Source of the DNA: a virus
DNA: 21,576 bases
Reading direction: 5' to 3' (one strand)
IMG/VR virus record: IMGVR_UViG_3300012920_000332
Location: 1 to 21,576 of that record
A model generated the notes under the pieces. It did no database searches and was not told the origin of the DNA. It saw nothing but the letters and a program-made list of their open reading frames with translations. The position numbers and the translations under genes were made by a program. Position 1 is the first letter of the stretch; each line of letters opens with the position of its first letter. This document shows positions 98 to 21,576 of this stretch, one piece after another.

Positions 98-2806
98 ATG
101 GCGACCAATTTTAGGATTAAACGCTCTGCTGTAGCGAACAAACGTCCGACAACTACAAATTTACAACTTGGTGAATTAGCACTCAACACCTATGACGGAT
201 TTCTATTCGCAGAGAGAGATGGTGTTAGACTTACAACAGTAACGAATCTTACTCCGTGGTATGAAAACTATGGTGCGTCATCAATATATTATAGCAATTC
301 GGTAGGTATAGGGACAACCAATCCACTATACAACTTAGATGTAAGAGGAGCAATAGGTGGTTATACAGATCTTCGTGCACCACATCGCGATGATATAGTT
401 ACATATACAGTAACTGTCGCAACTAAAGATACAACTCATAGATATCAAGGGCAAGGAAGTAATAGTGGATATAAGATAGATGGAGAGTTCTCACCTTTCT
501 TGGTGTTGACACCGGGTAGAACATATCGGTTCGATCAGTCTGATAATACAAACAGTAATCATCCAATACGTTTTTATCTAGAGGCAGATAAGACAACTGA
601 ATATACGACAGGTGTAACTAATACTGGTAATTCTCCAGCTCCGGGTAACTCAGGTGCTTATACTCAGATTGTAGTTGGTGATGAGACACCTGTTGTACTT
701 CATTATCAATGTGCGAACCATGGCTATATGGGGAACGCAGTCCAAGTAAATTCTAATGTAGTCAATACAAACTATGCAGGTATATTCAGAGGTGGTGTTA
801 CCGCAAATACTGCAATTGTTTCAGACTTAACAGATAATCGTGTTGTCATTGCTGGAGTTGGTGGTGAACTTGAGGATAGTGCAAATTTAACCTTTAATGG
901 TACAACTCTTTCTTCAGTTAATATAAATGTATCCTCTACATTAGATGTAGATGGTCTTGCAGAAATAGATGATTTAAATGTATCAGCAGCATCTACATTC
1001 GCTGGCACATCTAAATTTAATGGAATCATAGATGCCAACCATCAAATTGTTGGTCTTGCGACAAATAATATTATACCGTTTTTGTTTAATGCTTGGAGTG
1101 ATCTACCTAATCCCGGAACATATCATGGTGCATTTGCCCATGTCCATAGTTTTGGAAAGGCATATTTTGCACACGCAGGTAACTGGTATGAGTTTGTTAA
1201 TAAAGAACTGAATGGCACAATAGGTGTAGGAACAGAAAGATATAATATTGGCCCAACTGATATAACAACATTAGATGTATCTGGTATATCAACCTTTGGT
1301 GGTAATGTAGATGTAAATGCGAATATAGACGTTAATGGAACATCAACACTAGTAGGATTTACAACTCTAGGAAATAATTTATTCGTTGCTGGTGTATCTA
1401 CTTTTGCAAATAATATTACTGGTACGAATGCAACCTTCTCAGGTAATGTATCAATCGGTGGGACACTTACCTATGAAGATGTAACTAATATTGATTCAAT
1501 AGGTATCATAACTGCAAGATCAGGAATTAAAGTTCTTGGTGGTGGTATTAATGTAGTTGGTATTGCGACTGCTGATGGATTAGATGCAATTGAAATAAAA
1601 GATGATGGGTCAAGTGTTACAACTGGTGCGATATCAGTAATAGATTTTACAGGTGGTAATACGATTACATATAATGCTGGAACAAGAACTGTCACAGTTC
1701 CTGTCGGAAGTGGTAGTGGTAGTGGAACTGGTGGTAAATTTGTAGAGAACGCAACTGGTATACACACTCTGGGTAATGTTGGAATCGGAACAACAACAGC
1801 AAGTGATAAACTTACGATTCTAGGTGATTTAAAATTAGATGGTAAGTTAAAGGTAACAAACTTAGGATTAGCAGGATCAAATGGTCAGTTCTTAAAATCG
1901 ACTGGTGTTGGTGTTACATGGTCAAGTTTCCCAACAGCAAGAACAACTGGTATTGCTACTGCTACTGCAGGACAAACAAGTTTCCCATTTACATATAACG
2001 TAGGATTCTTAGATGTATTTGTAAATGGTGTAAAACTACAACACAGTGAGTTCGGTGCGACAAACGGAACATCAGTCACACTTACTCATGGTGCTTTTCT
2101 AGGTGATCAGGTTGAGTTTATTTCATACAATACTACTGCTACAGGAACTGGTGGTAGTTCAGGTATCACTGATGTTGTTCAGGACACCAGCCCGCAGCTG
2201 GGAGGCAACCTTGATCTGAATAGTAAAAATATTACTGGTACTGGTAATATTAGTATCACAGGTGATGTTACAGCGACTAACTTCTCTGGTAGTGGTGCAA
2301 ACTTAACAGATATAAATGTCTTTAAAACTATAGCAGTATCTGGACAAAGCGATGTAGTTGCAGACAGTATATCTGATACACTGACATTTGTTGCTGGTAG
2401 CAACATGACAATCACCACTAGTGCTGCTGGTGATTCAATCACATTTGCATCCACTGGTGGTGGAGGTGGAGCTACTAATGTAGGTATAACAACTAATATC
2501 ACCGGATCATTTTCTGCAAGTGCAGGATCGCCATCAACAATCAATACCTATTCATATAATGCAGATGATATTATGATTGAATATTCAATCTTCATTAAGA
2601 ATGGATCAAATTATCATTCACAGAAACTGTTTTGTATGAGAGATGGTACCTCAATAGATTCAACTGAATATGGGATTATGTTTAGTAGTACGAAATTAGC
2701 TGTTTTTGATGCAACAATAAGTGGTGGTAATATATTATTAAGAGCAACACCAGAAACTGGAGTTTCCGGTAACACAACATATCGTGTCAAACGTGAGGTA
2801 TCTTAG
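98..2806 (+). CDS. Large modular tail-fibre protein with cupredoxin-like domain (902 aa)
   Basis: Probable virion structural protein of the tail-fibre or adhesin type. Residues 1-60 hold an attachment-like region with the motif LGELALNTYDG common in marine myovirus tails, followed by VGIGTTNP. Residues about 100-220 resemble a small blue-copper (cupredoxin) domain with H155, C205, H208 and M211 in an amicyanin-like order (NHP, then CxxHxxM). A beta-rich shaft follows (repeats such as LDVSGISTF and LFVAGVSTF), then an AHVHSFGKAYFAHAGNWYE segment near residue 345, TYEDVTNIDSIGIITARSG at about 458, a GSGSGSG linker near 540, TAGQTSFPFTYNVGFLDVFV near 622, DTSPQLGG at 696 and a GGGGG linker near 787. 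The last 110 residues are a probable distal domain. The gene is first after a late promoter and its stop TAG shares a base with the GTG start of the protease gene. No enzymatic role is implied; copper binding is a prediction. Confidence 0.85.
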   Translation: MATNFRIKRSAVANKRPTTTNLQLGELALNTYDGFLFAERDGVRLTTVTNLTPWYENYGASSIYYSNSVGIGTTNPLYNLDVRGAIGGYTDLRAPHRDDIVTYTVTVATKDTTHRYQGQGSNSGYKIDGEFSPFLVLTPGRTYRFDQSDNTNSNHPIRFYLEADKTTEYTTGVTNTGNSPAPGNSGAYTQIVVGDETPVVLHYQCANHGYMGNAVQVNSNVVNTNYAGIFRGGVTANTAIVSDLTDNRVVIAGVGGELEDSANLTFNGTTLSSVNINVSSTLDVDGLAEIDDLNVSAASTFAGTSKFNGIIDANHQIVGLATNNIIPFLFNAWSDLPNPGTYHGAFAHVHSFGKAYFAHAGNWYEFVNKELNGTIGVGTERYNIGPTDITTLDVSGISTFGGNVDVNANIDVNGTSTLVGFTTLGNNLFVAGVSTFANNITGTNATFSGNVSIGGTLTYEDVTNIDSIGIITARSGIKVLGGGINVVGIATADGLDAIEIKDDGSSVTTGAISVIDFTGGNTITYNAGTRTVTVPVGSGSGSGTGGKFVENATGIHTLGNVGIGTTTASDKLTILGDLKLDGKLKVTNLGLAGSNGQFLKSTGVGVTWSSFPTARTTGIATATAGQTSFPFTYNVGFLDVFVNGVKLQHSEFGATNGTSVTLTHGAFLGDQVEFISYNTTATGTGGSSGITDVVQDTSPQLGGNLDLNSKNITGTGNISITGDVTATNFSGSGANLTDINVFKTIAVSGQSDVVADSISDTLTFVAGSNMTITTSAAGDSITFASTGGGGGATNVGITTNITGSFSASAGSPSTINTYSYNADDIMIEYSIFIKNGSNYHSQKLFCMRDGTSIDSTEYGIMFSSTKLAVFDATISGGNILLRATPETGVSGNTTYRVKREVS
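2183..2218 (+). other. GC-rich conserved segment encoding DTSPQLGGNLDL
   Basis: By hand count 23 of 36 bases are G or C, inside otherwise A+T-rich coding sequence. The encoded phrase DTSPQLGGNLDLNS is familiar to me from many marine phage fibre proteins. It may be a recently exchanged piece or a shared recombination point; this is inference. Confidence 0.5.
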
Positions 2807-4749
2807 TGAAACGATATACATTATCAGTGACATCACCAGAATATTGGAGTGAAATACATGAAGCACTTATTGTAGACTCTAATCAGGATGGTATTCCAGA
2901 TCGAAAAGTTACTTGTTCAAATTCTAAAAGTTTTAGTCCGACTCGAAGCACTTATGAGTTGACTGAAGAAGAAGCTGCTGAGATTGCAAAACATCCTAAA
3001 GTTCAGTGGATAGAACTTTCTCCTGAAGATAATCCCGATCATTATCCAAACCCATCTCCAGCGAGTAAAAGATATTTATCCAATGTAAAAATATATCGTG
3101 ATCTTGGAACTCATGGCCCATCAGCATCTAATCCTCCATTATCAGATTTGAATAGAACAAATTGGGCAATGAAGAGAGTTGGTATAGATACTAATGGAGA
3201 TTTTTATGGAACATCTACAGGTAATATAGCATCGGTAAATGGTAATTTAGATTTCAGTTTGACAGGAAAGAATATTGACATTATAATACAGGATTCAGGT
3301 ATACTAGCATCACATCCGGAGTTTTTAGATGGAACAGGGAAATCACGAGTTCGCGATATTGTGCTTGACGGGCCTTATTATATTGATAAATCTTACTTTG
3401 ATACTAATAACCATACTTTTACACGACCAGATGGTAGAGTTGGGATCACTACGACATCTGCTATCGCGTGGTGGGAAAATAACTCATCAAGATCAGCAAC
3501 ATACCAAGCATACGGAACAGTAAATATACCATCTGGTTATACTGAAGCAAAAGCAATGGGAGTTGGTATAGGAACAGTGCATTCATTAACAAGTGGTCAT
3601 GGAACTGCATGTGCATCTCTAGCAGCAGGAAAAAATTTTGGTTTAGCATTTGAAGCAAATATATGGAATATGCCGGGAATTTCTGATGCAGTTAACTTAA
3701 CTCCCATTACAAATTATGAGTTGATGAATTTGTTTAATATATTAAAACCCGTAAATTCTGAGACAGGAGTTAAAAACCCCACATTGATTAATGGTAGTTG
3801 GGGATATCAAGCAGCATTTTCATCTAATAGCACTGTGAGTTATAAGTTTAGGGGAAGCACAGGAACATTTACAGGTAATGCATCAGTCACAGATCAAGTG
3901 ACTGCGATGAAAGATGGTTTGAATAATCAAGTTGCAGGTGCTTATCGTTCTTGGTCTTCCTCATCACGTTCAAATTCTACTGATACTGCTGGAAATGAAA
4001 TGATGACGGGAGGTAATATTCATTATGTTGCAGCAGCTGGAAATAATAATCAAAGACTTGGTGTTGGTGCAGATGATCCTGATCGTTTAAATTACATGAG
4101 TGATAATTATTATAGTACGACTGATCCACGGTCTGAATTTCCTTCAGGGACTGTTCCATGCAATCATCGTGATTGGATGACACCACAAGGTTTGGGATTT
4201 ATCGAGGCTGCAGATCCTAATTTTCACCCTACGATTTGTGTTGGTGCAATGGATGATGAGGTGAATGTTGATTTATCTGAGAGAAAGGCATCATACTCAA
4301 ATAATGGGCCCGGTATAGATGTTTGGGCTCCAGCAGACGAAACACTTGCAGCAGGATTAACTGGTCAAGCATCATATGAAGATTTTCAACGTAGAGATAA
4401 TAATGTTTTCTTTGACGCTAATTTTAATGGGACATCAGCAGCAGCACCTGTTGTTACTGGATTAGTTGCTTTATATCTACAAGGTAATCCAACTGCAACA
4501 CAAAGACAGGTAAAAAACTTTATTGAAACGAAAGGTAGTGTGCTCGTTGAAAATAGTCTTTATCAAGATCAATATTCAAATGATTCCACTACTACGTATT
4601 GGACTGGATCTTTCAATTTGAGAGGTGCCTCAAGGAGAATTGCTCGTGATTTATCAGCAACAAATGTTAAGCCTACAATTAAAGGTGGTTTTACTGGAAC
4701 AAATCATCTTAGTATGACTGGATCAAACTTATCAATTAAACATAAATAA
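2806..4749 (+). CDS. Subtilisin-like serine protease (peptidase S8), tail-associated (647 aa)
   Basis: A complete subtilase triad is visible: D163 in QDSGI, H265 in GHGTACASLAAG and S544 in NGTSAAAPVVTG, with N413 in AAAGNNN as the likely oxyanion asparagine. Residues 1-75 resemble an I9-type propeptide, ending in LTEEEAAEIAKHPKVQWIEL, and contain DSNQDGIPD (24-32), a calcium-loop pattern like thrombospondin type-3 repeats. No signal peptide or membrane segment is seen. The start is GTG, overlapping the previous TAG, with GAGG seven bases upstream, so translation is probably coupled to the fibre gene. The stop TAA lies inside the next late promoter. In this setting the enzyme may be a virion component that cuts host-surface protein or processes fibres; the target is unknown. 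Identification as S8 is strong, the role is inferred. Confidence 0.92.
   Translation: MKRYTLSVTSPEYWSEIHEALIVDSNQDGIPDRKVTCSNSKSFSPTRSTYELTEEEAAEIAKHPKVQWIELSPEDNPDHYPNPSPASKRYLSNVKIYRDLGTHGPSASNPPLSDLNRTNWAMKRVGIDTNGDFYGTSTGNIASVNGNLDFSLTGKNIDIIIQDSGILASHPEFLDGTGKSRVRDIVLDGPYYIDKSYFDTNNHTFTRPDGRVGITTTSAIAWWENNSSRSATYQAYGTVNIPSGYTEAKAMGVGIGTVHSLTSGHGTACASLAAGKNFGLAFEANIWNMPGISDAVNLTPITNYELMNLFNILKPVNSETGVKNPTLINGSWGYQAAFSSNSTVSYKFRGSTGTFTGNASVTDQVTAMKDGLNNQVAGAYRSWSSSSRSNSTDTAGNEMMTGGNIHYVAAAGNNNQRLGVGADDPDRLNYMSDNYYSTTDPRSEFPSGTVPCNHRDWMTPQGLGFIEAADPNFHPTICVGAMDDEVNVDLSERKASYSNNGPGIDVWAPADETLAAGLTGQASYEDFQRRDNNVFFDANFNGTSAAAPVVTGLVALYLQGNPTATQRQVKNFIETKGSVLVENSLYQDQYSNDSTTTYWTGSFNLRGASRRIARDLSATNVKPTIKGGFTGTNHLSMTGSNLSIKHK
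4741..4748 (+). promoter_or_regulatory. T4-type late promoter, CATAAATA
   Basis: CATAAATA is followed directly by ACTAAAAAA and the start codon at 4763. The TAA at 4747-4749 that ends the protease gene overlaps the box. By T4 spacing, transcription would start in the A run about nine bases before the ATG. There is no Shine-Dalgarno sequence in the leader. Confidence 0.75.
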
Positions 4750-4762
4750 CTAAAAAAGTAAT

Positions 4763-7174
4763 ATGGCAGATAAAGCATTCGGTGTAGATCAGTTAGATAT
4801 TTTGGGGAGTGGAACTCCAACGATATCTGCACCAAACCAATTAAATTTAGATTGTCATACTGTTGCGATAAGCACATCAGTCACAGTGGGTGCTAATTTG
4901 ACTGTGAATGGTAATATTGACTTAGGAAATGCTTCTTCAGATACTATATCTTTAACAGGTGTTGTTGATACAAATATTATACCAAGTGCAGATAGTTCAA
5001 AAAATATTGGAAGTAATACAGTTAGATTTGCAAATGGATATTTTGATACAGTTTATGGAGATGGATCAAATTTAACTAACCTCCCTGCCTCTGGTATATC
5101 AACATCACCATCAAATGTACAGGCAACATGGAAATTAGGTGGTGGTTCAGGTTCTGGATTTACATTTACAGGGCCAGGACAAGATGGAGCAGAGGGTAAT
5201 CCTGACATTTATTTGGTAAGAGGACAAAGATATCTTTTTGATAACACCACATTAGCTGGTAATCATCCATTTGAATTTAGAAATGCAGCAAATGATGCAG
5301 ATTACACGGATGGTGTTTCAGGTGCCCAAAATGGATTGCAATATATAAATGTTCAACACGATGCACCAGCAGCACTAAAGTATAGATGCACGATTCATAC
5401 CAATAGTATGCTTGGAAACATTTATATTGTTGGACAACACTTGGCAAATGGTGCAGACAATCGAATATTGACTGCGACAAGTGCTTATGGAATGAATGGT
5501 GAAGCAAACTTAACTTTCGATGGAACTTCATTAGATGTAAATGCCAGTGCAACTGCAGCAAATTCTGAGGCAAACACCTTAGTATTGGGTCATGGTAGTG
5601 GAAATTATGTTGGAATGACACTTCAATGTGCACCTTCATATCCCGGTAGTATTTTCTTTACTGATACTGATAGTGGTAATCAAGGTCAGATTGTTTATAA
5701 CCACAGCACAAATGAATTGAGATTCTATGCAAACGGATCTCAAAAATTGGTTTGTAAATCTGATGGAGTACTTGTTTCCAACGGTAGTTTGTATCTTAAT
5801 GATAGTATTATTCATAATGGTGATACAAATACAAAGATAAGATTTCCTGATGCTGATACTTTTTCAGTAGAAACTGGTGGTAGTGAAAGACTTCGCATCG
5901 ACTCAAGTGGTCATGTAACTGTTAACTCAACTTCATATGAAGCTCTCACTGTAACGACAAGTGAAAATGGAACAAATGGGCCAGAACTTTCACTTGTTCA
6001 TAATTCTGCATCCCCTGCTGCTTCTGATTCTATTGCTCAAATAAGATTTAAAGCAAAAGATAGTGCTGGTAATACTGATCTTTATGCCAGAATACATACA
6101 AATTTAGCAAGTCCTACAAGTGGATCTGAAAGTGGTGATTTAGTATTTGGTACTAGAGGTTCTGGAACATTTGCAGAAAGACTTCGCATCACATCAAATG
6201 GCTCTTTACTTTTAGGAACAACTACTGATCTTGGACATCTTACTGTATCTCAAGCTCAAAATAGTGCCACAAGTGGTACTTTTACTGACCCACATATTCG
6301 GTTAGATGCTCCAAACACTACAGATAATGTAGGTTTCTCAGGCATAGCATATTCTGTAAGTTCTCTTACAAATTATGGTTGGACTGCTGGTGCTCAAAGA
6401 GATTCAACAAGTGGAACAGATGGTGTATTTGTAATGAGACATCATAACAACAGTGCTACAGGTAATGAAAGATTACGCTTGGAATATACTGGTTCTGTAA
6501 AAATTAAATCAGCCGCTGGTAATTCTGCTGTTGAAATTATACCAACAGCATCTGCTTCAACATCATTAGTTTTAAAAACATGGCAAGATAATTCTGGTGG
6601 TAGAAACTGGGCAATTAGAAATCGTTATAATGATCATGGAAGATTAGAATTCATGAGAAGCACAACGAATAGTAATGATCCTTTGACTCCTGTTTTGTCT
6701 ATGAATCGTGATGGAAATTGTAGTTTTTCTGGTTCATTATCAAAAGCATCTGGTTCATTTAAAATTGACCATCCTTTACCATCTAAAACTAATACACATC
6801 ATCTTGTTCACTCATTTGTAGAATCACCTCAAGCTAATAATATATACAGAGGTAAAGTAGATTTAGTTGATGGCACTGCCACAGTTAATATTGATACAGT
6901 AGCAGGAATGAGTGATGGAACTTTTGTTTTATTAAATAGAGAAATTCAATGCTTTACATCGAATGAAACTGGATGGGTAGCAGTAAAAGGTTCTGTATCT
7001 GGAAATATTTTAACAATTACATCTCAAGAAAATACTTGTACCGATACTATTTCATGGATGGTTATCGGGGAAAGAAAAGATAAACATATGTATGACACCG
7101 ATTGGACAGATGAAAATGGTAAAGTAATTGTTGAACCGTTGAAGGAAACAGATGCTGCTCTTGAGAGTTCATAA
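4763..7174 (+). CDS. Large modular tail-fibre protein with cupredoxin-like domain and fibre tip (803 aa)
   Basis: Probable late virion protein. The N-terminus (ADKAFGVDQLDILG) leads into VDTNIIPSADSSKNIGS and the YGDGSNLTN module near residue 105. Residues about 130-222 form a second cupredoxin-like domain: H168 in GNHPF, then C209, H212 and M216 in YRCTIHTNSM. The middle consists of repeated units, each ending in a phrase like SERLRIDSSG (about residues 375, 472 and 569, so roughly 97 residues apart), with a looser one near 326. From about residue 665 the sequence SGSFKIDHPLPSKTNTHHL begins a C-terminal domain of a kind often found at the tips of phage fibres. Two cysteines in it (IQCF and NTCTD) are worth noting. 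It sits alone between two late promoters of the same kind. Confidence 0.85.
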   Translation: MADKAFGVDQLDILGSGTPTISAPNQLNLDCHTVAISTSVTVGANLTVNGNIDLGNASSDTISLTGVVDTNIIPSADSSKNIGSNTVRFANGYFDTVYGDGSNLTNLPASGISTSPSNVQATWKLGGGSGSGFTFTGPGQDGAEGNPDIYLVRGQRYLFDNTTLAGNHPFEFRNAANDADYTDGVSGAQNGLQYINVQHDAPAALKYRCTIHTNSMLGNIYIVGQHLANGADNRILTATSAYGMNGEANLTFDGTSLDVNASATAANSEANTLVLGHGSGNYVGMTLQCAPSYPGSIFFTDTDSGNQGQIVYNHSTNELRFYANGSQKLVCKSDGVLVSNGSLYLNDSIIHNGDTNTKIRFPDADTFSVETGGSERLRIDSSGHVTVNSTSYEALTVTTSENGTNGPELSLVHNSASPAASDSIAQIRFKAKDSAGNTDLYARIHTNLASPTSGSESGDLVFGTRGSGTFAERLRITSNGSLLLGTTTDLGHLTVSQAQNSATSGTFTDPHIRLDAPNTTDNVGFSGIAYSVSSLTNYGWTAGAQRDSTSGTDGVFVMRHHNNSATGNERLRLEYTGSVKIKSAAGNSAVEIIPTASASTSLVLKTWQDNSGGRNWAIRNRYNDHGRLEFMRSTTNSNDPLTPVLSMNRDGNCSFSGSLSKASGSFKIDHPLPSKTNTHHLVHSFVESPQANNIYRGKVDLVDGTATVNIDTVAGMSDGTFVLLNREIQCFTSNETGWVAVKGSVSGNILTITSQENTCTDTISWMVIGERKDKHMYDTDWTDENGKVIVEPLKETDAALESS

Positions 7175-11357: not shown

Positions 11358-11735
11358 ATGAAACACGGTATAATATCAGCACTGCATACATTAAAACCAA
11401 ACGCAGATTGGGTTCTTCGTGGGGATGACTACTCTGGTATTGAGTGGATGGATAGTGGTCAGACAAAACCCACTGAGGAAGAAATATTACAAAAAATTAA
11501 AGAACTTAACTCAGCAGAACCAATAAGATTACTACGTGAGGAAAGAGATAAAAGAATTGCATTGACTGATTGGAGAGCAGGAAGTGATCTGGTTATGAGT
11601 GATGATTGGAAAAGATATCGTCAGGCATTACGAGATTTACCTCAGACCGCAGGAGGAGGTGCAAGATTAGATTCTAATTCTGAATTAATTCTAAGTTCTA
11701 TACCTTGGCCTCAAGAGCCTCAGGAGATCTCATAA
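11358..11735 (+). CDS. Tail-fibre assembly chaperone-like protein (125 aa)
   Basis: Unlike its neighbours this protein is charged and helical, not beta-rich. Residues about 55-95 contain LLREERDKRIALTDWRAGSD and KRYRQALRDLP, the signature of the Phage_tail_APC / tail fibre assembly family, whose members help fibres fold or join the tail. The N-terminus (MKHGIISALHTLKPNADWVL, GIEWMDSG) resembles the small substrate-interaction part of such proteins. The last residues include a Pro-rich tail, IPWPQEPQEIS. A second copy of the signature occurs at 19229. The two share the core but differ elsewhere, suggesting different fibre partners. Confidence 0.75.
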   Translation: MKHGIISALHTLKPNADWVLRGDDYSGIEWMDSGQTKPTEEEILQKIKELNSAEPIRLLREERDKRIALTDWRAGSDLVMSDDWKRYRQALRDLPQTAGGGARLDSNSELILSSIPWPQEPQEIS

Positions 11736-19228: not shown

Positions 19229-19642
19229 ATGTCTTACCAACCAAGTCCTAATCCTGATTTTTCAGTTTTCCCATGTTTATCGAATGCGGTAAATAAAGCT
19301 GCAGGTAAAATATGTAATTTTTCAATTACAGGATTAAATGATATAACCAATTTATCTGCAATCCGATGGGAGGATTCAGTAACTGCTCAACCATCAGATT
19401 CAAATATCACAACTGCCTATAATACCCTTCTCTCAGAGTATCCTATGCATAAATTAAAGGCTGAAAGAAATGTTAAACTAGCAGAAACTGATTGGATGGC
19501 AGTTGCTGATCGAACACAAACTGATGCTGAGAAAACTTATAGACAAGCATTAAGAGATCTACCAACAACATCATCATCACCGACATATAATTTAGAGACT
19601 GGTGTGTTAGGAAATGTAAACTGGCCGACAAAACCATCATAG
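19229..19642 (+). CDS. Tail-fibre assembly chaperone-like protein (137 aa)
   Basis: The C-terminal half carries MHKLKAERNVKLAETDWMAV and EKTYRQALRDLP, the same signature as the 125-aa protein at 11358 (ERDKRIALTDW ... YRQALRDLP). The N-terminal half (DFSVFPCLSNAVNKAAGKIC, NLSAIRWEDSVTAQPSDSNI) is different. AGGAG overlapping the upstream TAG gives a good ribosome-binding site. It closes the adhesin block; the DNA after it has no late promoter and looks like the start of another transcription unit. Confidence 0.75.
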   Translation: MSYQPSPNPDFSVFPCLSNAVNKAAGKICNFSITGLNDITNLSAIRWEDSVTAQPSDSNITTAYNTLLSEYPMHKLKAERNVKLAETDWMAVADRTQTDAEKTYRQALRDLPTTSSSPTYNLETGVLGNVNWPTKPS

Positions 19643-21371: not shown

Positions 21372-21400
21372 TTGCATATATACTAGGAATGTGTTAATAT
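21372..21400 (+). promoter_or_regulatory. Sigma70-like promoter for the riboswitch transcript
   Basis: TTGCAT (21372-21377) and TAATAT (21395-21400) are 17 bases apart, the optimal spacing. The start point would be about 21407, directly at the first aptamer (CGTTC at 21409), as expected for a leader RNA. Confidence 0.6.
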
Positions 21401-21408
21401 AAACACAT

Positions 21409-21488
21409 CGTTCATCTCACGTCATTGCTTTTTACTTATTTTTAGAAGAATGCGATGAATTGGGACGCAAGTAAGCCGACACGGAACG
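21409..21488 (+). ncRNA. Glutamine-riboswitch-like aptamer, copy 1
   Basis: CGTTC (21409-21413, in CGTTCATC) pairs with GAACG (21484-21488). Inside is a 7-bp stem TCATTGC/GCGATGA (21422-21428 and 21452-21458, one G-U pair), followed by GGGACGCAAGTAAGCC. The order CGTTCATC - P2 - GGACG.AAGTA - GGAACG matches the glnA / Downstream-peptide aptamer of cyanobacteria and marine phages as I remember it. The canonical GAAGGAACG end is replaced by CACGGAACG, so this copy may be altered. Confidence 0.65.
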
Positions 21489-21492
21489 GGTT

Positions 21493-21533
21493 CGTTCATC
21501 CCGAAAGGGACGCAAATGCCGACTGAAGGAACG
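21493..21533 (+). ncRNA. Glutamine-riboswitch-like aptamer, copy 2
   Basis: CGTTC (21493-21497) pairs with GAACG (21529-21533); CCC-GAAA-GGG (21500-21509) is a compact P2; then come GACGCAAATGCC and GACTGAAGGAACG, whose end fits the glnA / Downstream-peptide consensus. It repeats copy 1 at GGGACGCAA, GCCGAC and GGAACGGG. The AGTA part of the usual loop-E motif is missing here. Ligand is assigned by motif memory only. Confidence 0.65.
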
Positions 21534-21568
21534 GGATTAAAAACCCCTACTACTACAGGAGAAAACCG

Positions 21569-21576
21569 ATGGCCAA
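21569..21576 (+). CDS. Start of a riboswitch-controlled gene (partial, Met-Ala-)
   Basis: ATG at 21569 is seven bases after AGGAG (21557-21561) and follows the aptamer pair, so a gene almost certainly starts here. Only Met, Ala and two bases of a third codon (AA) are inside the window, so the product cannot be named. Confidence 0.6.

Follow-up and report, generated by a model that had tools for sequence, protein, structure and literature searches.

The window analysed here, a stretch of viral DNA of 21,576 nt, is an entire IMG/VR virus record whose end falls 8 nt inside a gene. The leader of this gene contains two repeats bordered by CGTTC and GAACG, which raises the question of whether it holds two glutamine aptamers in tandem, as an initial annotation proposed, or a single structure to which both repeats contribute. 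All features of the leader lie on the + strand. Copy 1 (21409-21488) runs from CGTTC at 21409-21413 to GGAACG at 21483-21488 and copy 2 (21493-21533) from CGTTC at 21493-21497 to GAACG at 21529-21533, with the linker GGTT (21489-21492) between them. The same two-copy arrangement recurs: a first set contained 103 loci with it, and the total came to 207 distinct phage units. The RF01739 E-value of copy 2, given below, places the repeats beyond chance.

Relation to the glutamine-I riboswitch

In a 357-nt stretch containing the leader, the RF01739 (glnA) model matches copy 2 with 33.2 bits (E 1.4e-5) and copy 1 with 13.1 bits (E 4.9). RF01704 (Downstream-peptide) reaches 20.1 bits on copy 2, in an alignment that leaves the pairs of the 3' helix mostly broken. 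The gathering cut-offs are 35 and 33 bits, respectively, and no match in the window reaches its Rfam gathering threshold, RF01739 on copy 2 being the best. The search that was suggested with the annotation as a check, where two significant hits would have counted as support, gave nothing at the gathering threshold. Of the two families named there, glutamine-I is retained and a glutamine-II identity was rejected on the RF01704 score and the lost 3' helix.

The relatives L021, L060, L085 and L003 exceed the RF01739 gathering threshold, with 35.4-43.6 bits. In the first three of these, the alignment spans both copies (85-97 nt, 38-44 bits). For L021, the model builds its P3 from AGU of copy 1 with ACU of copy 2 and leaves the middle as an insert; scored separately, the two copies of this unit obtain 32.8 and 19.1 bits. 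RF01739 was built by others and is hence independent of our analysis. In the window, its feature set (P1 CGUUC/GAACG, P2, CGNAAGUA, P3, GAAGG) is complete if the 5' half of copy 1 is combined with the 3' half of copy 2, and the P1-capping pair, which links the variable base of CG[N]AA to the nucleotide following GAACG, is present as C21468-G21534. A pair of complete aptamers, with P1 and the entire junction present in both, is absent from the window. We conclude that the leader repeats belong to the glutamine-I riboswitch family. A published glnA match in cyanophage S-CREM1 (99 nt, 44.0 bits; PMC9964418) is of a length compatible with a composite of this kind.

Division of the conserved elements between the copies

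The canonical aptamer has the order P1-5' CGUUC, A, P2, CGGAAGUA, P3, GAAGG, GAACG. In a set of 233 distinct canonical aptamers, bacterial and viral, the P3 segment follows AAGUA and runs directly up to GAAGG, and 115 of 128 distinct bacterial cases fold to a closed P3 hairpin at this place. In the 207 two-copy units, copy 1 keeps AAGUA without GAAGG and copy 2 keeps RAAGGAACG; the unit search itself demanded AAGUA in copy 1 and RAAGGAACG in copy 2. The complementary losses, of GAAGG from copy 1 and of GUA from copy 2, are seen in the window and in nearly all units. The inner junction lacks GUA and GAA. The linker measures 3-6 nt in 207 of 207 units. Because the search patterns demanded the closing CGTTC/GAACG stems, these are invariant in this data set, and P1, its strands fixed in this way, gives no covariation signal.

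The annotation was therefore correct that the two copies are missing different consensus parts, a difference that is conserved. The suggestion that one copy is decaying does not hold up: the 13-bit score of copy 1 would suit a decaying duplicate, but it results from the P2 insert, a long extended hairpin that depresses the RF01739 score, and from the missing GAAGG, and the same asymmetry is constant across 207 units. We consider that copy 1 can hardly be such a remnant.

Other arrangements occur as well. At L113 (+ strand, units near 6504-6830), a triplet is found in which an extra type-1 copy without a P3 partner precedes the nested pair, and the neighbouring arm carries a 67-codon ORF. The unpartnered copy counts against the nested reading proposed below. 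True tandem glutamine-I aptamers with two complete copies are present at L133, L141, L160, L187 and L198, on contigs of SAR86 and other marine bacteria.

A P3 helix between the copies

The segment after AAGUA of copy 1 (P3a) is complementary to the segment before RAAGG of copy 2 (P3b) across the units, and the two sit where the canonical P3 sits, between AAGUA and GAAGG. Variants include AGUCG/CGACU, AGUCA/UGACU, GCCAAC/GUUGAC and, with one mismatch, GGACGG/CCGCCC. Over 36 distinct P3a/P3b combinations, 82% of the cells in the first five positions are paired in register, against 11-45% when the strands are slid by 1-3 places. True partners also beat shuffles within length classes (1/2000 and 0/2000), and compensatory pair types are seen at several P3 positions. 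The commonest type retains two C.A mismatches at places where other lineages have standard pairs. In the window, P3a (AGCCGACA, 21474-21481) and its predicted partner P3b (UGCCGACU, 21517-21524) form six of eight standard pairs, with C.A and A.C at positions 3 and 6, and forcing this helix costs energy in the thermodynamic model.

The P3 covariation would also be accounted for by two aptamers that each form their own P1 and make a kissing contact through a P3a-P3b pseudoknot. Such an arrangement leaves the constant linker of 3-6 nt and the covariation described in the next section unexplained, and appears very improbable to us.

The capping pair as a test of topology

All 233 canonical aptamers pair the N of CG[N]AA with the nucleotide that follows GAACG (G-C 208, C-G 21, G-U 4). 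The name 'linchpin' for this P1-capping pair, and the role assigned to it, reportedly originate with Ren 2015. A nested topology pairs N of copy 1 (N1) with the base after copy 2 (post2) and N of copy 2 (N2) with the first linker base, whereas a tandem pairs each N with the base directly after its own copy. N1 and post2 form a standard pair in 207 of 207 units, C-G and G-C contributing about half each; under shuffling the paired fraction has a mean of 0.50 and a maximum of 0.62. Some search patterns favoured N1=G or a non-G linker, and none was conditioned on the post2 base. The inner capping pair is kept in 192 of the 207 units, with that of L074 misparsed by the search pattern. Written as N1, linker, N2 and post2, the units fall into the classes CGCG (90), GGCC (82), CCGG (12), GCGC (5) and rarer others, and the own-copy pairs of a tandem are broken in about half of them (82 GGCC and 12 CCGG). 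On a tree of the downstream proteins, which is rough because the peptides are short, N1 and post2 change together in all six independent well-supported comparisons (p 0.031); the tandem pairings show no association on this tree.

The initial annotation read the leader as two glutamine-riboswitch-like aptamers in tandem, each closed by a stem within the copy, and pointed out that tandems can give steeper or two-step responses; published surveys likewise count glutamine doublets as tandems. Each copy alone does match RF01739 to some degree, complete-copy tandems exist in SAR86, other bacteria and some viral contigs, and tandem glutamine RNAs have been reported (Weinberg 2010; Sherlock 2022). However, each copy of the cyanophage units lacks one conserved junction element, the own-copy capping pairs are broken in roughly every second unit and show no covariation on the tree, and the P3 strands match between the copies, all of which makes independent aptamers quite improbable. 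The compensatory changes that the annotation asked for exist in abundance, but they lie between the copies, in a topology other than the one assumed. They join copy 1 to copy 2, at P3 and at 21468/21534, and each copy is therefore one of two complementary halves that make up a single nested structure.

A probable composite nested riboswitch

The inter-copy P3, the N1-post2 pair, the failure of the within-copy pairs and the RF01739 alignments that span both copies lead us to a nested fold, a topology that is well supported by sequence comparison. We are accordingly confident, if short of certain, that the leader is one composite nested glutamine-I riboswitch. Most likely, an ordinary outer aptamer carries a circularly permuted second three-way junction in the loop of its P3. 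RNAfold agrees for the isolated segment 21407-21541, where the nested fold is the minimum free energy (MFE) structure at -34.1 kcal/mol against -31.2 kcal/mol for the tandem, in energies that leave out tertiary contacts. The nested ensemble energy is below that of the tandem in 75 of 76 ORF-free units.

In the composite, copy 1 would supply the 5' strand of P1, P2, CGCAAGUA and the 5' strand of P3, and copy 2 would complete one canonical aptamer with the 3' strand of P3, GAAGG and the 3' strand of P1. The outer P1 is predicted to pair CGUUC at 21409-21413 with 21529-21533. The P2 arm of copy 1 (21415-21465) consists of a UCUCA/UGGGA closing stem and an extended 7-bp hairpin, UCAUUGC/GCGAUGA. 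J2/3 (CGCAAGUA, 21466-21473) contains the linchpin base C21468, with G21534 as its predicted partner, and is followed by P3a. GAAGG and GAACG at 21525-21533 correspond to the canonical J3/1 and the 3' strand of the outer P1 (RF01739 consensus GAAGGAACG). The second junction, in the P3 loop, would be made of the P1' hairpin, P2' and the same P3. P1' (21484-21497; GAACG-GGUU-CGUUC), present in the MFE structure, joins the 3' end of copy 1 to the 5' end of copy 2; it is followed by the P2' arm UCCC GAAA GGGA (21499-21510) and the inner J2/3 CGCAAA (21511-21516), in which C21513 is predicted to pair with G21489 as an inner linchpin.

Small genes in the P2 arms

Intact genes of 49-73 codons occupy P2 arms in most relatives, and the unit of the window holds none. 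Its copy-1 P2 arm is without an ORF at a position that is a gene slot in many relatives, where the arm carries an ORF in 51 units (51/51). About half of the relatives hold a gene of 49-66 codons in the P2' arm of copy 2; this arm exceeds 100 nt in 102 of 207 units, and 100 of the 102 hold an ATG-started ORF. These ORFs begin 3-5 nt after CGTTCA in all but one of the 100 cases, and 99 stop at the TGA of the aptamer's GAC-TGA. With median dN/dS values of 0.14 and 0.28 and an excess of third-position change, the arm ORFs behave as coding sequence, which indicates that the genes are under purifying selection. They match phrog_504, phrog_6471 and phrog_13397, all of unknown function, and are annotated as genes in S-SSM7, P-RSM6, S-SM1 (SSM1_203) and P-HM1 (PHM1_179/180); one arm-protein query found relatives in 311 phage records, all of cyanophages. 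The C-termini WDAND* or IGRK* of arm proteins are encoded by letters of the aptamer core.

The helix around the gene is kept. Positions 3-5 of the arm are paired in 96% of cases against at most 54% in slid registers, and they covary (pair 3: C-G 53, U-A 44, U-G 4; pair 4: A-U 43, C-G 42, U-A 9, U-G 7). The start codon of the arm gene lies wholly or partly within the P2' helix. The linker is GAG in 37 of 100 units with a P2' gene and in 0 of 105 without, and could possibly provide GGAG as a Shine-Dalgarno (SD) sequence. The P2 arms would serve as slots for small genes in relatives, and translating them would have to open the arm.

Two side observations concern the arms themselves. The same hairpin, TTCGCTATT-CGCA-AATAGCGAA, forms the copy-2 P2' arm in L006, L016, L045 and others, and is also found inside copy-1 arms (L017, L111, L124) and in single aptamers (L259, L261); it may be a mobile or recombining arm module. 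Closely related proteins beginning MLSLALIFFSHV are encoded in the P2' arm of L017 and the P2 arm of L023, a relatedness that suggests that arm genes have been exchanged from one slot to another.

Small genes in relatives are flanked by parts of the element, which provides an SD, start-codon pairing and stop codons and whose inner junction lacks GUA and GAA. These traits would be explained if the element were no longer a sensor but a translational spacer of the phage, riboswitch-like by descent, that orders small genes and masks their start sites. Against it, the outer junction keeps CGNAAGUA, RAAGG and the capping pair in all units, DUF4278-type genes, the usual targets of glutamine riboswitches, come next, and many units, including that of the window, hold no gene. 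We regard the loss of sensing as unlikely.

Distribution and genomic neighbourhood

The leader of the window finds matches in 89 phage records, each from a cyanophage or marine virus. The two-copy signature is present in 188 phage records, which belong without exception to cyanophages or unclassified marine viruses. By exact pattern, the nested form was found in none of 386 cyanobacterial genomes, 33 of which contain the canonical aptamer, and in no plasmid. As far as searched, the nested form is specific to cyanophages; a host origin was considered and rejected on the same counts. The window has a T4-like Kyanoviridae (cyanomyovirus) gene neighbourhood, with genes for glutaredoxin, DUF6433 and tail chaperones. 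The window also encodes, among tail-fibre-like ORFs, a 647-aa ORF with a subtilase domain (2806-4749, +; Peptidase_S8, 66 bits), and Phage_tail_APC (tail assembly chaperone) is found in two separate ORFs about 8 kb apart (11358-11735 and 19229-19642, +).

A promoter scan detected no + strand sigma-70 promoter directly upstream of copy 1. Immediately 5' of copy 1 (about 21390-21408), an inverted repeat surrounds a likely -10 box, as also in L003, L004 and L006; it reads TGTGTTAATATAAACACA in the window, TGTGTTATAATTAACACA in S-SSM7 and GGTCTATAATAGACC in S-PM2, and is possibly an operator or early promoter.

Downstream gene and proposed switching

Copy 2 is followed by a putative expression platform (21534-21568) with the capping base G21534, a short GGG/CCC hairpin and the SD AGGAG (21557-21561). 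Of the gene itself, the window contains the first 8 nt (ATGGCCAA, 21569-21576). By synteny, it probably encodes a small DUF4278-type YRG protein. The description of the element as a phage leader ahead of one gene, here in a cyanophage, is borne out. P-TIM68 (L003) shows this arrangement ahead of a 47-aa protein beginning MAKVTYRGVEYD that passes the Pfam DUF4278 cut-off with 26 bits. A small ORF lies 3' of 192 of the 207 units; 154 of these ORFs have a Y-x-G signature near the start, and the remainder are mostly of an MNTL type, examples of which also have YRG motifs. A PDB search with the downstream peptide gave no match.

Among the genes that glutamine-I and -II riboswitches turn on at high glutamine are those of the DUF4278 type, gifB/IF17 being one example (review PMC6316151). 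By analogy with the family, from which the ligand, the ON direction and the occupancy of the inner site are taken, glutamine would bind the outer junction and lock the outer P1 through the capping pair 21468-21534. The locked P1 would hold CUGAAGGAACG apart from the stretch that precedes the ribosome-binding site, with the result that translation of the DUF4278-type gene would be ON at high host glutamine. Within the marine group (N1=C), the aptamer segment CU[GA]AAG is able to pair with CUU[CU]AG ahead of the SD; for the full window leader, the MFE structure has a terminal helix of this kind against CUGAAG, with the outer P1 open. Over all units, complementarity between aptamer and leader was not above shuffles overall, and in the thermodynamic model the SD is not released in the nested state (mean accessibility 0.20 free, 0.21 nested). 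Neither of these aggregate tests supported the platform, which makes the switching step weak and leaves the expression platform an inference. The leader probably links the downstream gene to host nitrogen status.

The inner junction may be structural only. Alternatively, and rather doubtfully, it could be a working permuted glutamine aptamer that shares P3 with the outer one, the two sites being cooperative; in relatives, glutamine would then switch ribosomes between the P2-arm gene, with its start codon paired in the arm and its SD in the P1' loop, and the downstream DUF4278 gene.

Comparison with known systems

With the glutamine-I riboswitch (RF01739), known as the glnA motif (Weinberg 2010), the leader shares P1, P2, CG(N)AAGUA, P3, GAAGG, the capping pair and the DUF4278 association. 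In contrast to it, the P3 loop of the cyanophage form holds a second, permuted junction, the P2 arms of relatives often hold genes, the window has CGCAA/G in place of the commoner CGGAA/C, and the nested form was found here only in cyanophages. Ames & Breaker 2011, Ren 2015 and Klahn 2018 are said to be studies of the glutamine-I riboswitch. The glutamine-II riboswitch (RF01704) has in common with the leader CGCA in J2/3, GAACGG at the 3' end and small downstream peptides, but differs in the low score and broken 3' helix noted above.

Sherlock et al. 2022 (PMC9481103) counted 157 doublets and 4 triplets of glutamine riboswitches as pseudo-cooperative. These tandems likewise have two RF01739-like repeats per leader and are read as independent aptamers, whereas the cyanophage copies are complementary halves. 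Some of the published doublets may be of the nested kind, and the nested fold, if true, alters the reading of published 'tandem' glutamine riboswitches.

Natural permuted RNAs comprise hammerhead and twister ribozymes, 5S rRNA and group II introns (Eckert 2023, PMC10085705), which resemble the inner junction in having the same core with segments in another 5'-3' order. No riboswitch is named among the known cases listed there, and the openly accessible literature searched yielded neither a description of the nested fold nor one of aptamer arms that contain genes. Going by the papers searched, a nested aptamer whose second junction is permuted would, if true, be the first permuted riboswitch known from nature. 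As the element is common in marine cyanophages, it would tie phage gene expression to host glutamine.

The B12 aptamer of M. tuberculosis metE contains a translated uORF (PMC11260477), so that an ORF overlaps an aptamer and translation should disturb folding, as in the arms described here. The metE uORF is short and lies inside the aptamer, while the cyanophage P2 loops hold conserved genes of 49-73 codons with a covarying closing helix, an unusual sharing of one stretch by RNA structure and whole protein-coding genes.
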